DNA from: Phycisphaerae bacterium RAS2
GTDB taxonomy: Bacteria > Planctomycetota > Phycisphaerae > UBA1845 > UTPLA1
Direction: 5' to 3'
NCBI GenBank assembly: GCA_007753915.1
Contig: CP036352.1
Location: 2,853,306-2,917,305, forward strand
Length of the DNA: 64,000 nt
Part shown: piece by piece, positions 52,208 through 60,547 of the stretch
Position numbering within the stretch: position 1 is the first letter of the stretch
How the letters are laid out: every line of letters begins with the position of its first letter
Position numbers and translations under genes: made by a program
Notes under the pieces: model-generated
The model's input: only the letters and a program-made list of their open reading frames with translations
Told to the model about the DNA's origin: nothing
Databases searched by the model: none

Positions 52208-55174
52208 CTACTTCACTGACTTTTCCATCGGCGGACACGTGCAGAACAGGTTCCGATCCCCATAGGCATTATCAATCCGCCCCACAGCGGGCCAGAACTT
52301 GTGATCCCGCACCCACGGCAGCGGGTAAGCCGCCTGTTCCCTCGCGTACTTGTGCGGCCAATCGTCCCGTGCGACCGATTCGGCCGTGTGGGGCGCGCCC
52401 TTGAGCGGATTGTCGTCTCGCGGCATCGCGCCGTTCTCGATCGCACGAATCTCTTCGCGGATGGCGATCATGGCTTCGCAGAAGCGATCAAGTTCTTCTC
52501 GCGATTCGCTCTCGGTCGGCTCGATCATGAGCGTGCCGGGGACGGGGAAGGACATGGTCGGAGCATGGAAGCCGAAATCGATCAGGCGCTTGGCGATGTC
52601 CTCGACTTTCACGCCCGCAGACTTCTCGAACGGGCGGCAGTCGAGAATGAATTCGTGCGCGACGCGACCGTTGTTGCCGCGGTAGAGGACGGTAAAGTGC
52701 CTCTCCAGCCGGCGTGCCATGTAATTGGCATTCAGAATGGCAACCTGCGTCGCGCGCTTCAACCCCTCGCCGCCCATCGCCGCGATATAGACCCACGAGA
52801 TCGGCAGGATCGACGGGCTGCCGTATGGAGCGGCCGACACCGCGCCGACTGCTTTCTCCCCCGCGGTGCCGGGCCGGATGACCGGATGCCCCGGAAGAAA
52901 CGGCGCGAGCGCGGCGGTAACGCCGATCGGCCCCATGCCCGGTCCGCCGCCCCCGTGTGGAATGCAGAACGTCTTGTGGAGATTGAGATGGCAGACGTCG
53001 GCGCCGATGTCGCCGGGGCGGCAAAGCCCGACCTGCGCGTTCATGTTCGCGCCGTCCATATAGACCAGCCCGCCGTGCTGATGGACGATCTGGCAGATCT
53101 CGCGGATGGCCGTCTCAAATACGCCATGGGTGGACGGGTAGGTCACCATCAGCGCACCAAGGCGGTCCTTGTGCTCGGTGGCCTTGGCGCGAAGATCCGA
53201 CACATCGATGTTGCCGGCCGAGTCGCACGCGACGGGCACGACGGTGAACCCGGCGACGACGGCGCTGGCGGGGTTGGTGCCGTGCGCCGAATCTGGTATG
53301 AGACAGACGTCGCGATTAGCCTGGCCGCGCTCCTGATGATACGCCCGGATGACCAGCAGCCCGGCGTACTCCCCCTGCGAGCCCGCGTTTGGTTGCAGCG
53401 ACACTCTGGCGAAGCCCGTGATCTCCGCGAGCCAGCCCTCCAGTTGGGTAAACACCTTCTGATAACCGGGCCACTGATCGGCCGGCGCGAACGGGTGCAT
53501 CGCCCCAAACGCGGGCCACGTCACCGGAATCATCTCGCAGGTCGCATTGAGTTTCATGGTGCAGGAGCCGAGCGGGATCATCGCATGAGCCAGCGACAAG
53601 TCTCGATTCTCCAGCCGCTTCATGTAGCGAAGCATCTCGGTCTCGCTGTGATACAGATTGAAAACGGGATGCGTCAGATAGGACGATTCGCGTTGCGGTA
53701 GATCGGCGGGCGCTGCCTTGTACGGATGTACCGAGCCGCTGCGGCCGGCGCTATTCGCCAGCGTGCGGAGCGCTTCAATCAGCCTCGCGATGTCGTCTTC
53801 CGTCGTGGTCTCGTCCACCGAGATCGACACCTCGGCCTCGCTCGTCGCACGGATGTTGAATCCGGCCTTCGCGGCGGCATCCACGAGCGTTGCCGGCGCG
53901 CCGACGAAATAACTCTGCTCGTCGAGATGAACTGTGATCGTGTCGAAAAACCGATTCGCCGGCAGGCAGAAACCCAGCGATGCGAGTTGCTCGCGCAATC
54001 GAGCAGCACGACGGTGAATCCCCTCCGCGATTCGCTTCAACCCCGCCGGGCCGTGATAAACCGCGTACATGCTGGCCACGATGGCCAGCAGAGCCTGGGC
54101 CGTGCAAATGTTGCTGGTTGCCTTCTCGCGGCGGATGTGCTGCTCGCGCGTCTGGATGGCCAGGCGATAGGCCGGTCGCCCGTGGACATCCTTCGAGACA
54201 CCGATCACGCGGCCGGGAATGAGTCGTTTGTATTCATCCTTCGTCGCCAGGAACGCCGCGTGCGGCCCGCCCAGGCCCATCGGCACGCCCAAGCGCTGCG
54301 CCGAGCCGAGGGCGATGTCCGCGCCCCACTCGCCGGGCGGCGCGATCAGCGTGCAGGCCAGCAGGTCCGTCGCCGCCGCGACCGGTACGCCGAACTCGTG
54401 CGCCCAGGCCGTCAGCCCGCGATAATCTTCGATCCGCCCGTCCGTCGTCGGGTATTGCAGCAACAGCCCGAACAGGGTCTTCATCCGGGCGGCATCCTTT
54501 GACCGGAGCAACTCGGCCGGATCGCCTGTCGTGACAACGATCCCCAGCGGCTGCGCTCGCGTCGTCACGACGGCGATCGTCTGTGGATGACAATCGGCCG
54601 CCACAAAAAATACATTCCGCTCATTCGATTCGCCCGCGATTGACCGGCACATGTGCATGGACTCGGCGGCGGCGGTCGCTTCGTCTAGCAGCGACGCATT
54701 GGCCAGCGGCAGGCCCGTCAGGTCGGCGACCATTGTTTGAAAGTTCAGCAATGCTTCGAGACGGCCCTGCGAAATCTCGGCCTGGTACGGTGTGTATTGC
54801 GTGTACCAGCCGGGGTTTTCGAGGATGTTTCGAAGGATGACCGGCGGCGTGATGCAGTCGTAGTAGCCCGTGCCGATCATCGAACGCAGCACGCGATTCT
54901 GCGCGGCATGGCCGGCCAGCTCGCGTAATACGTCGGTCTCACTGCGTGACGGACCAATTGCCAGGGGTTTCTTCAGCCGGATGTCTGCGGGCACCGTCTC
55001 GTCGCTTAGTGCATCCAGCGATGCGCAGCCGACGACGGCGAGCATCTCCGCGATGTCGTGGTCGCGCGGCCCAAGATGACGCGGGACAAACGTGGCGGCG
55101 GGGTCGATCGGTTCGGCTTCGTGGGAGCGCGAACCAGGGTCGGTCGCGCCGGATGAACTGGACGACGAAGACAT
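52208..55174 (-). CDS. gcvP: Glycine dehydrogenase (decarboxylating), P protein
   Basis: A 988-residue single-chain P protein from ATG 55174 (further starts upstream; the family start is about residue 30). It decarboxylates glycine and passes the aminomethyl group to lipoyl-GcvH. The N-terminal half has [10 protein letters not shown] then [15 protein letters not shown]; the C-terminal half has the PLP Lys in [16 protein letters not shown] (~733). Both halves fused is the E. coli type. Order on this strand is gcvT, gcvH, gcvP. Between gcvH and gcvP is 207 bases with a palindromic hairpin. Confidence 0.95.
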
Positions 55175-55364
55175 GGATGCGGGCTTCTCCCCTGCGGCAT
55201 GCTGCGGCCGCGGCGACGCGGATGTTCTAGTCATCCGAATATCGTCGGGCAACGGGGGAGAATTGGCAATGTCAACGAGAACGTTTAGTGCTGCTCAGCT
55301 TGCATCCAGTAGTTGGCTGGAGGGGCAGTGTTATCCGATGCGAGGGTAAACGTGGATAAGCAGC

Positions 55365-59226: not shown

Positions 59227-59730
59227 ATGAACACGTCACGAATCTTAATGATCGGTTCCCTGGTAGCGCTTGCCGCGTTGTCGAGTTGTTCGCAATCGGC
59301 CGGACCAGTGAAACAGGCGCCGGACTTCACGCTTGACAGCCTGAATGGTGGAAAGGTGTCACTCGCGCAGCGCCGGGGGCAAGTCGTGCTGATCGGTTTT
59401 TGGGCGGTCAAGTGAGGGCCCTGCCGTGCGGAGGCTCCGCACTTCAAGGCGTTGCAGGCGAAGTACGCGTCGCGCGGGTTCACCATCCTGGCGGTCAATG
59501 CATGGAATGAGTCGAAAGACATGGTTCAGGAGTTCGCGACGAAGAACAGTCTGAACTACCCGATTCTCCTCGACGGGAAGCAAGTCTTCCGCGATGACTA
59601 CGGCGGCAAGTCGATTCCTCATTCATTCCTGCTCAACAAGCAGGGCGAGGTGGTTTGGTCGCAGATCGGCTGGGGCGACGAGCTGACGGACGTGCTGGAG
59701 AAGAAGATCGAGGAATTGCTGGCCCAATAG
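59227..59730 (+). CDS. TlpA-like thioredoxin-fold lipoprotein with selenocysteine at in-frame TGA
   Basis: A 167-residue protein if TGA 59413-59415 is read as selenocysteine. The lipoprotein signal ends L-A-A-L-S-S-C (Cys21). Residues ~27-62 are the TlpA/Trx start (A-P-D-F-T-L-D-S-L-N-G and V-V-L-I-G-F-W-A-V-K). Codon 63 is TGA, then G-P-C-R-A-E-A-P: the active site is U-G-P-C where TlpA relatives have C-x-P-C. The frame then continues smoothly with I-L-A-V-N-A-W, the cis-Pro loop S-I-P-H-S-F-L-L and a final helix. No frameshift is needed. A SECIS-like hairpin lies directly after. Reduces or isomerises thiols in the envelope, presumably; selenocysteine would raise reactivity. SelA/B/C genes are not in the window. 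Confidence 0.8.
59413..59442 (+). promoter_or_regulatory. Bacterial SECIS-like element after the Sec TGA
   Basis: TGA at 59413-59415 is followed at 59426-59442 by GTGCGGA-GGC-TCCGCAC, a perfect 7-bp stem with a 3-base loop starting GG (or a 6-bp stem with AGGCT loop, close to the E. coli fdhF AGGUCU loop). The loop G at 59433 is 17 bases after the TGA, within the 16-37 base spacing given for bacterial SECIS. It lies inside the coding frame, as SelB-type elements do. Confidence 0.65.
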
Positions 59731-60016
59731 TGAAGCATCTTTCACCAGGGCGAGATCACAGAATCCGATCGACGAACGCGCAAGCGACGGCAGCCGCCCA
59801 AGCGAATTCGACGTTGAGGACTGGAATTTGGGATTTAAGAGTTCAGATTTGAGATTTAAGATTTACCACTTGGCATTTAAGATTTAGGATTTGAGATTCG
59901 AGAATCGACGCTTGTCACCTGCGCGCCTTGACACTTGAGTGATCCGATTGCAGCCTTGACCACTTGAGAGTTGCAAACCGCCTATTTGATTCGCTCAACA
60001 AGAGCGGAGCACCATC
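59731..60016 (+). repeat. Degenerate 7-bp tandem repeats upstream of the four-helix-bundle gene
   Basis: From ~59824 to ~59906 the sequence keeps a 7-base phase of AGATTTG/AGATTTA-like units (e.g. AGATTTG AGATTTA AGATTTA ... AGATTTA GGATTTG AGATTCG AGAATCG), strongly A/T-rich in a GC-rich region. Flanks are GC-rich and untranslated. The complementary unit recurs inside the next gene (60290-60324). Confidence 0.75.
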
Positions 60017-60547
60017 ATGAAATACTCCCGCTTTGAGGACTTGCCGGTCTGGAAGGCCGCGCAGGATCTCGCCGAGCGGGTTTATCGAATGACAAAGGAC
60101 CGCGCATTTCATCAGCCCGGTGATCTGCTGGATCAGATGCGTCGCGCGGCACTTTCAGTATCCAACAACATCGCGGAAGGGTTCGAACGCGGCTCGACGG
60201 CCGAACTCCTGATGTTCATTTACATCGCGCGGGGGTCTGCCGGAGAAGTTCGCTCGATGCTCCACTTGTGCGAGCGTCTGCCGGAGTTTTCAAATCTCAA
60301 ATCTGAAATCTCAAATCTGAAGAGTCTGGCGGAATCGTGTTCCCGTCAACTTCGCGGCTGGGCGGACAGCCTGCAGAACACGGAGATCAAAGGCCAGCGA
60401 CATTTGAACGATCAATCTCGCGACGTTTATGAGCACCGGCGACGCGCGTCCGCGTTCTGGGAGAAGATCGAGAAGATGCACGAAGCAAAGATGGAGGCAC
60501 TTCGGCGAGAGCGCGAATCTGAAGAGCGCGAATCAGAAGTGAAATAG
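60017..60547 (+). CDS. Four-helix bundle protein of the 23S rRNA-IVP (S23/bAvd-like) family
   Basis: A 176-residue helical protein from ATG 60017 (GGAGC seven bases upstream). Family marks are Y-S-R-F-E-D-L-P-V-W-K-A-A-Q-D-L-A, M-R-R-A-A-L-S-V-S-N-N-I-A-E-G-F-E-R-G and F-I-Y-I-A-R-G-S-A-G-E-V. These small proteins are encoded in 23S rRNA intervening sequences in some bacteria and as stand-alone genes elsewhere; bAvd of diversity-generating retroelements shares the fold, but no reverse transcriptase is here. Residues ~91-103 (S-N-L-K-S-E-I-S-N-L-K) are encoded by the 7-bp repeat. The last ~50 residues are highly charged with a duplicated R-E-S-E-E motif. Confidence 0.85.
   Translation: MKYSRFEDLPVWKAAQDLAERVYRMTKDRAFHQPGDLLDQMRRAALSVSNNIAEGFERGSTAELLMFIYIARGSAGEVRSMLHLCERLPEFSNLKSEISNLKSLAESCSRQLRGWADSLQNTEIKGQRHLNDQSRDVYEHRRRASAFWEKIEKMHEAKMEALRRERESEERESEVK
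60290..60324 (+). repeat. 7-bp repeat inside the four-helix-bundle gene
   Basis: TCAAATC TCAAATC TGAAATC TCAAATC TGAAGAG: five units in frame with the gene, giving S-N-L-K-S-E-I-S-N-L-K. They are the reverse complement of the AGATTTG-type units at 59824-59906, so the two arrays could pair in the mRNA. Confidence 0.8.

Follow-up and report, generated by a model that had tools for sequence, protein, structure and literature searches.

A predicted selenocysteine form of a ResA/TlpA-type lipoprotein in Phycisphaerae bacterium RAS2 and its relatives

Within the 64,000-nt stretch of planctomycete DNA that we analysed (the window), one gene encodes a ResA/TlpA-type lipoprotein whose active site is interrupted by an in-frame TGA. 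The best explanation overall, to which we give a probability of about 0.93, is that the nucleophile of this protein is selenocysteine (Sec), forming a U63-G-P-C66 site. Decoding of the UGA as Sec appears almost certain, since the codon is conserved and followed by a SECIS hairpin, the genome carries the Sec machinery, and purifying selection acts on both sides of the UGA. The first-pass annotation had called the gene a candidate selenoprotein with Sec in place of the nucleophilic Cys, a proposal that the machinery, the conserved TGA, compensating changes in the hairpin and purifying selection after the TGA now strengthen. The features of the locus are collected in Table 1.

Table 1. Features of the predicted selenoprotein gene, in window coordinates
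Feature	Position	Strand	Basis
TlpA/ResA-like lipoprotein gene, TGA read as Sec (predicted)	59227..59730	+	frame, Pfam, AlphaFold model with ResA and DsbE-like PDB matches
Signal peptide through lipobox Cys21 (L-S-S-C)	59227..59289	+	sequence; Cys in 8/8 aligned rows
TGA codon, predicted Sec63, first residue of the U-G-P-C active site	59413..59415	+	translation; orthologue codons
Resolving Cys66 codon	59422..59424	+	translation; invariant in eight-orthologue alignment
SECIS hairpin	59426..59442	+	RNAalifold, pair counts, published SECIS rules, folding energy

On translation, the gene is a single frame of 167 residues that ends in TAG and has the TGA at codon 63 as its sole internal stop. The TGA occupies the first Cys position of the C-x-x-C motif (FWAVK-U-GPC-RAEAP). 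In an alignment of eight orthologues, with Sec written as C, the lipobox Cys21, active-site positions 63 and 66 and the cis-Pro P131 are all invariant. The frame had been described at first pass as continuous except for this TGA, with the stop exactly at the first Cys and the cis-Pro loop intact, and each of these points was borne out. The ORF list splits the gene into a 62-residue piece and a 92-aa frame starting at 59452. That the same TGA occurs in G011, a genome of the same genus, at 86% identity, and altogether in 33 of the 114 order genomes, shows that the observation is no chance event.

The protein has a ResA/TlpA-type thioredoxin fold with the [C/U]xxC motif and cis-Pro. Its Pfam matches were AhpC-TSA (87.6 bits) and Redoxin (86.9 bits), and the nearest NCBIfam model was ResA (NF002854), at 95 bits against a cut-off of 170, which places it outside ResA proper. 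A sequence profile search of the PDB ranked ResA 4nmu first (E = 1.7e-33), then 3gl3, 3kcm and 1st9. An AlphaFold model built with Cys in place of Sec (pLDDT 88.6, pTM 0.80) also had ResA 4nmu as its top Foldseek match (E = 2.9e-15); its best PDB matches were ResA and DsbE-like proteins, and StoA too was among the best sequence and fold matches. With the Cys forms ResA, TlpA and StoA it shares the common fold, membrane anchoring as a class, the position of the C-x-x-C motif and the cis-Pro; the difference is that their nucleophilic Cys is here a predicted Sec. At the N-terminus, the LSSC sequence fits the lipobox claimed at first pass: its Cys is present in 8/8 aligned rows, and our own lipobox pattern fits 31 of the 33 Sec orthologues; the other two have VGFGC and LTMGC at this place. 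Lipidation is a prediction from this pattern, and we consider it highly probable that the protein is an envelope lipoprotein.

In ResA/TlpA enzymes, the first residue of the C-x-x-C motif attacks a client disulfide, and the mixed disulfide that forms is resolved by the second. We propose that SelB carrying Sec-tRNA(Sec) would bind the hairpin, allowing the UGA to be decoded, and that the protein would be exported, lipidated at Cys21 and retained in the envelope. There, Sec63 would attack disulfides of client proteins and Cys66 would resolve the selenenylsulfide, with electrons supplied by the only DsbD found in its genome. The one DsbD_TM match is a protein of 878 aa that combines DsbD N-terminal, membrane and thioredoxin-like domains. 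Because its gene lies far from the Sec gene, the link between the two proteins is one that we infer, and for a DsbD-fed reductase role the odds are about even. The neighbouring genes, compared in eight stretches, neither support a reductase role nor name a client. They comprise an upstream gene whose product has TPR-like matches below cut-off, a 23S-rRNA-IVP-type ORF, panC and lgt; the latter two also follow the gene in G011 and G014 and were not found in six other stretches of 11-15 kb.

Three further observations concern the surroundings of the gene. The 23S-rRNA-intervening-sequence-type ORF (60017-60547) separates the Sec gene from panC; no such ORF was found in G011, in which the two genes are about 180 bases apart. 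An AT-rich repetitive stretch of gatttaag/gatttgag units lies behind the Sec gene at 59820-59920. Elsewhere in the window, ARAGORN called a tRNA-Arg (tct) at 55152-55244, antisense to the start of the gcvP frame, which is probably a false call.

We also weighed a Sec-dependent envelope peroxidase, which would reduce peroxides, like peroxiredoxins and glutathione peroxidases, rather than disulfides. AhpC-TSA and Redoxin as top Pfam families are in keeping with such an enzyme, as are a weak Pfam match to GSHPx and weak NCBIfam matches to PrxQ and other peroxidase profiles. However, the site is U-x-x-C at the thioredoxin position, as opposed to the T-x-x-U of Sec peroxiredoxins, ResA, DsbE-like proteins and StoA match best in sequence and fold, and the genome encodes DsbD. 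A peroxidase is thus an unlikely reading, at perhaps one chance in a few, and we retain the ResA/TlpA-type protein with a Sec nucleophile.

The host genome (G000; one contig of 4.32 Mb, rated 97.4% complete) has all the components for making and inserting Sec that the first-pass annotation had suggested looking for, each above its curated cut-off. A tRNA-Sec is found at C1:221463-221556 (71 bits, cut-off 47; ARAGORN: SeC, anticodon tca), together with selB (679 aa, 323.3 bits, cut-off 242), selA (486 aa, 508.8 bits, cut-off 268) and selD (372 bits, cut-off 125). The selB and selA genes are adjacent and lie about 36 kb beyond the window. As a separate observation, selD (G000:C1:2633461-2634384, L112) is itself predicted to encode a selenoprotein, with an in-frame TGA in the motif CAG-U-AGK.

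Orthologues were compared at this codon, another check suggested at first pass. In the family, where 17 genomes were searched, TGA is present in G000, G011, G014, G001, G016 and G008, and Cys is present in two tandem copies in G015. In that genome, the tandem Cys paralogues (L016 and L031, on C35) replace the Sec gene, and selA is present. When 114 order genomes were searched with a profile, 33, host included, had an orthologue with TGA, and seven Cys copies (TGC or TGT) were found in six genomes (G015 twice, G019, G024, G108, G082 and G013). In a tree, a branch with support 95/86 sets these 40 rows apart from the other TlpA-like paralogues used, and seven Sec/Cys changes are needed. G012 (TGA, E = 8e-31) and two more TGA paralogues fall outside the 40-row clade and are not counted in the 33; G049 (E = 3e-37, no stop, 551-aa frame) and lower-scoring frames were left off the tree, a few being used as outgroups. 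By this pattern, an in-frame UGA conserved in relatives at a position where homologues have Cys, the gene is a predicted selenoprotein gene. A sequencing error at the TGA, which would undo this assignment, is excluded in practice by the TGA in 32 other assemblies from the order. Between G000 and G011, dN/dS is 0.13 before the TGA and 0.08 after it; the part behind the UGA is therefore translated as protein. The 17 bases of the hairpin are identical between these two genomes.

A selA gene was detected in 99 of the 114 order genomes, in 93 of them over cut-off. It exceeds the cut-off in 28 of the 33 TGA genomes, and G079 has a partial match just below. Three TGA genomes have none (G018, G089 and G107, which are 80, 83 and 98% complete) and G078 (63% complete) has a match of only 30.6 bits; in these four, the missing or poor selA counts against the Sec reading. 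Each of the six genomes that carry Cys copies has selA over cut-off, so the Cys copies are not explained by loss of Sec decoding. In 11 genomes of the family coded f3 (for example G026:C1:1372057-1373508), the selA match falls into two pieces within one open frame, as if there were an insert near model positions 259-267.

Behind the TGA, a 7-bp stem (59426-59432 with 59436-59442) encloses a 3-nt GGC loop (59433-59435) that begins 17 nt after the codon. The DNA of the 33 TGA rows aligns without gaps from the TGA onward, and RNAalifold, with no structure supplied, returned one hairpin on this alignment, pairing columns 14-20 with 24-30, which is the hairpin of Table 1; 98.3% of cells are paired. 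Pair 17-27 is C-G in 26 rows, A-U in 4 and U-A in 3, with four changes on the tree. The codons that contribute its two bases go together without exception: Ala GCG with Pro CCG (26), Glu GAG with CCT (4) and Val GTG with CCA (3). The Pro base tracks the altered base of the opposite arm in 7/7 changed rows and, because the change is silent, this base is demanded by the RNA and not by the protein. In 32 of 33 rows, T is the last base of the codon that closes the loop on its 3' side; elsewhere in these frames, GCT makes up 50 of 402 Ala codons.

Rules for bacterial SECIS elements, as given in a 2026 review (PMC13188914), specify a loop of 3-9 nt, a stem of 4-16 bp, a spacing of 16-37 nt, a G in the first two loop positions and a minimum free energy of up to -7.5 kcal/mol. 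With 7 bp, a GGC loop, a spacing of 17 and -9.9 kcal/mol, the window's hairpin conforms to these rules. So do 31 of the 33 Sec rows, G075 by way of another hairpin; the misses, G089 and G102, have 6-bp stems at -7.2 kcal/mol. None of the seven Cys copies passes, but the rules in this form alone prove little, because about 94.5% of 12,788 window positions also fail; they are loose, with a background pass rate of 5.5%. The 19-nt hairpin stretch folds at -11.3 kcal/mol (z = -3.42), while the window's 51 nt starting at the TGA are no more stable than shuffled sequence (z = -0.17); this longer fold was uninformative, and covariation took its place. Rfam gave nothing relevant at the locus, and three weak matches nearby (best E = 0.44) were dismissed as chance.

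These results also bear on what the UGA encodes. It might be read as another amino acid, through genome-wide reassignment to Trp or near-cognate read-through with the hairpin as a stimulator, since hairpins can stimulate read-through and our evidence for Sec comes from sequence. Yet tRNA-Sec, selA, selB and selD are all present, the TGA aligns with the redox Cys, a position at which some relatives have Cys instead, and UGA still ends proteins, since 10 of the 33 orthologues have TGA as the first stop behind the frame; decoding by another tRNA is very improbable and we rejected it. Ordinary gene calling yields two frames here, as would be expected if the gene made two separate products without Sec, the 62-residue piece and an internally started one. 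Such a split would cut the thioredoxin fold at the active site, and selection and the hairpin are conserved across it, so this idea, slightly less probable again, was also rejected. Finally, a pseudogene, point mutation or sequencing error that turned a Cys or Trp codon into TGA and left the rest untranslated, which the lone TGA in an intact frame and the existence of TGC or TGT relatives might suggest, was rejected as the least credible option, given the same TGA in 33 genomes, a dN/dS of 0.08 behind it and the compensating hairpin.

The predicted Sec protein has counterparts beyond the order. In the 17 family genomes, a covariance model built from the hairpin gave E < 1e-12 at the six TGA orthologues and nowhere else; of the other matches listed, the best had E = 0.002. 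Across 392 genomes of the phylum, it matched at E <= 1e-5 in 38 genomes, at 41 sites including the window's; the codon is TGA at 40 of these and TGC at one (G369). All 40 sites outside the window have x-x-Cys behind the codon, and their frames all have AhpC-TSA and Redoxin matches in Pfam at E <= 0.001; for L139 and L152, the printed translation starts behind the TGA. Adding 29 phylum sites to the 33 order rows, and leaving out 11 weaker sites, gave a set of 62 rows (57 distinct). Here 99.0% of cells are paired, and changes on both sides occur at five of the seven pairs, in 28 cells as against a mean of 3.2 in shuffled controls, with 0/500 shuffles reaching the observed count; shifting the partner by 1-3 columns abolishes such changes. 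The added rows were found by the model and are biased towards its structure, and related rows inflate the cell counts. Another control measure, further pair types, was less discriminating, its observed value being reached by 109/500 shuffles with 62 rows and 498/500 with 33; in the 33-row set, the single double-changed pair was reached by 296/500 shuffles. The first-pass annotation had remarked that Sec oxidoreductases are rarely met in the envelope; predicted from these sites, TlpA-like Sec proteins of this sort recur in the phylum.

A second TlpA-like group with an in-frame TGA (L024, L036 and L027, in G012, G009 and G005) reads FWATW-U-GPC and has a longer C-terminal part. It carries a different SECIS-like hairpin 30 nt behind the TGA, the arms of which vary in step (GCACCU/AGGUGC, GCAUCU/AGAUGC). 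No NCBIfam cut-off is reached by this group, and a Cys copy is found in the host genome (L109).

TlpA-like UxxC selenoproteins have been known since 2005; what is new here is a lineage-wide member with unusually good RNA-level evidence. Among the entries in Table 1 of PMC13188914 is a thiol-disulfide isomerase-like protein (cd02966, UxxC), which goes back to the Sargasso Sea work of Zhang et al., 2005 (PMC1088965) and is known there from four sequences. The same table includes a UGC-containing TlpA, a Redoxin family UxxC protein and a Prx-like thiol:disulfide oxidoreductase, and PMC2398784 lists related Prx-like and Trx-like groups. Our protein shares with the cd02966 selenoprotein the TlpA-like fold, a predicted Sec first in UxxC and prediction from a TGA and SECIS; it has the motif, its domain was judged by the Pfam and PDB matches, and the representative MGB1650493.1 was compared by description only. 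The Prx-like oxidoreductase (PF00578) and Redoxin family (PF08534) selenoproteins belong to the same Pfam families and have the same UxxC; like the cd02966 group, they were compared by description, without representative sequences. The NCBIfam selenoprotein family NF041054 ('ResA-like WAxxUGC motif-containing protein') and the UGC-containing TlpA disulfide reductase family are also ResA-like and have Sec at the equivalent point of the fold, but their UGC motif has one residue between Sec and Cys as against UGPC here; against NF041054 our protein scores 57.9 bits, far below the cut-off of 300, and so falls outside that family. The accessible part of PMC4807772 reports selenoproteins in two planctomycetes, TlpA not being among those named there, and the corresponding parts of PMC5029168 and PMC1794560 hold nothing further on this protein. 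No planctomycete TlpA selenoprotein was found in the open-licence literature, which was searched by title or by the opening of the abstract.

That many families of the phylum share this hairpin points to Sec as the older state here and to Cys as derived. Planctomycetota may accordingly hold an ancient Sec form of a ResA/TlpA-type protein, with the hairpin inherited in one register, in the first helix of the thioredoxin fold, and with Cys copies that arose later, as genomes that continue to make Sec repeatedly lost it from this protein. We put this forward tentatively, at somewhat less than even odds; the Sec/Cys changes were counted on an unrooted tree, which does not give their direction. If it is true, much of the phylum would use selenium routinely in the disulfide chemistry of its envelope. 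The predicted protein would be a widespread envelope selenoprotein in a poorly studied phylum, of a kind that ordinary gene calling splits in two. Its 17-nt hairpin would be a compact case of dual coding, in which RNA structure and codons share the same bases and a silent Pro base follows the opposite arm. The Sec and Cys orthologues in genomes with Sec machinery, seven changes apart on one tree, would offer a natural testbed for the benefit of Sec in a thiol-disulfide oxidoreductase.
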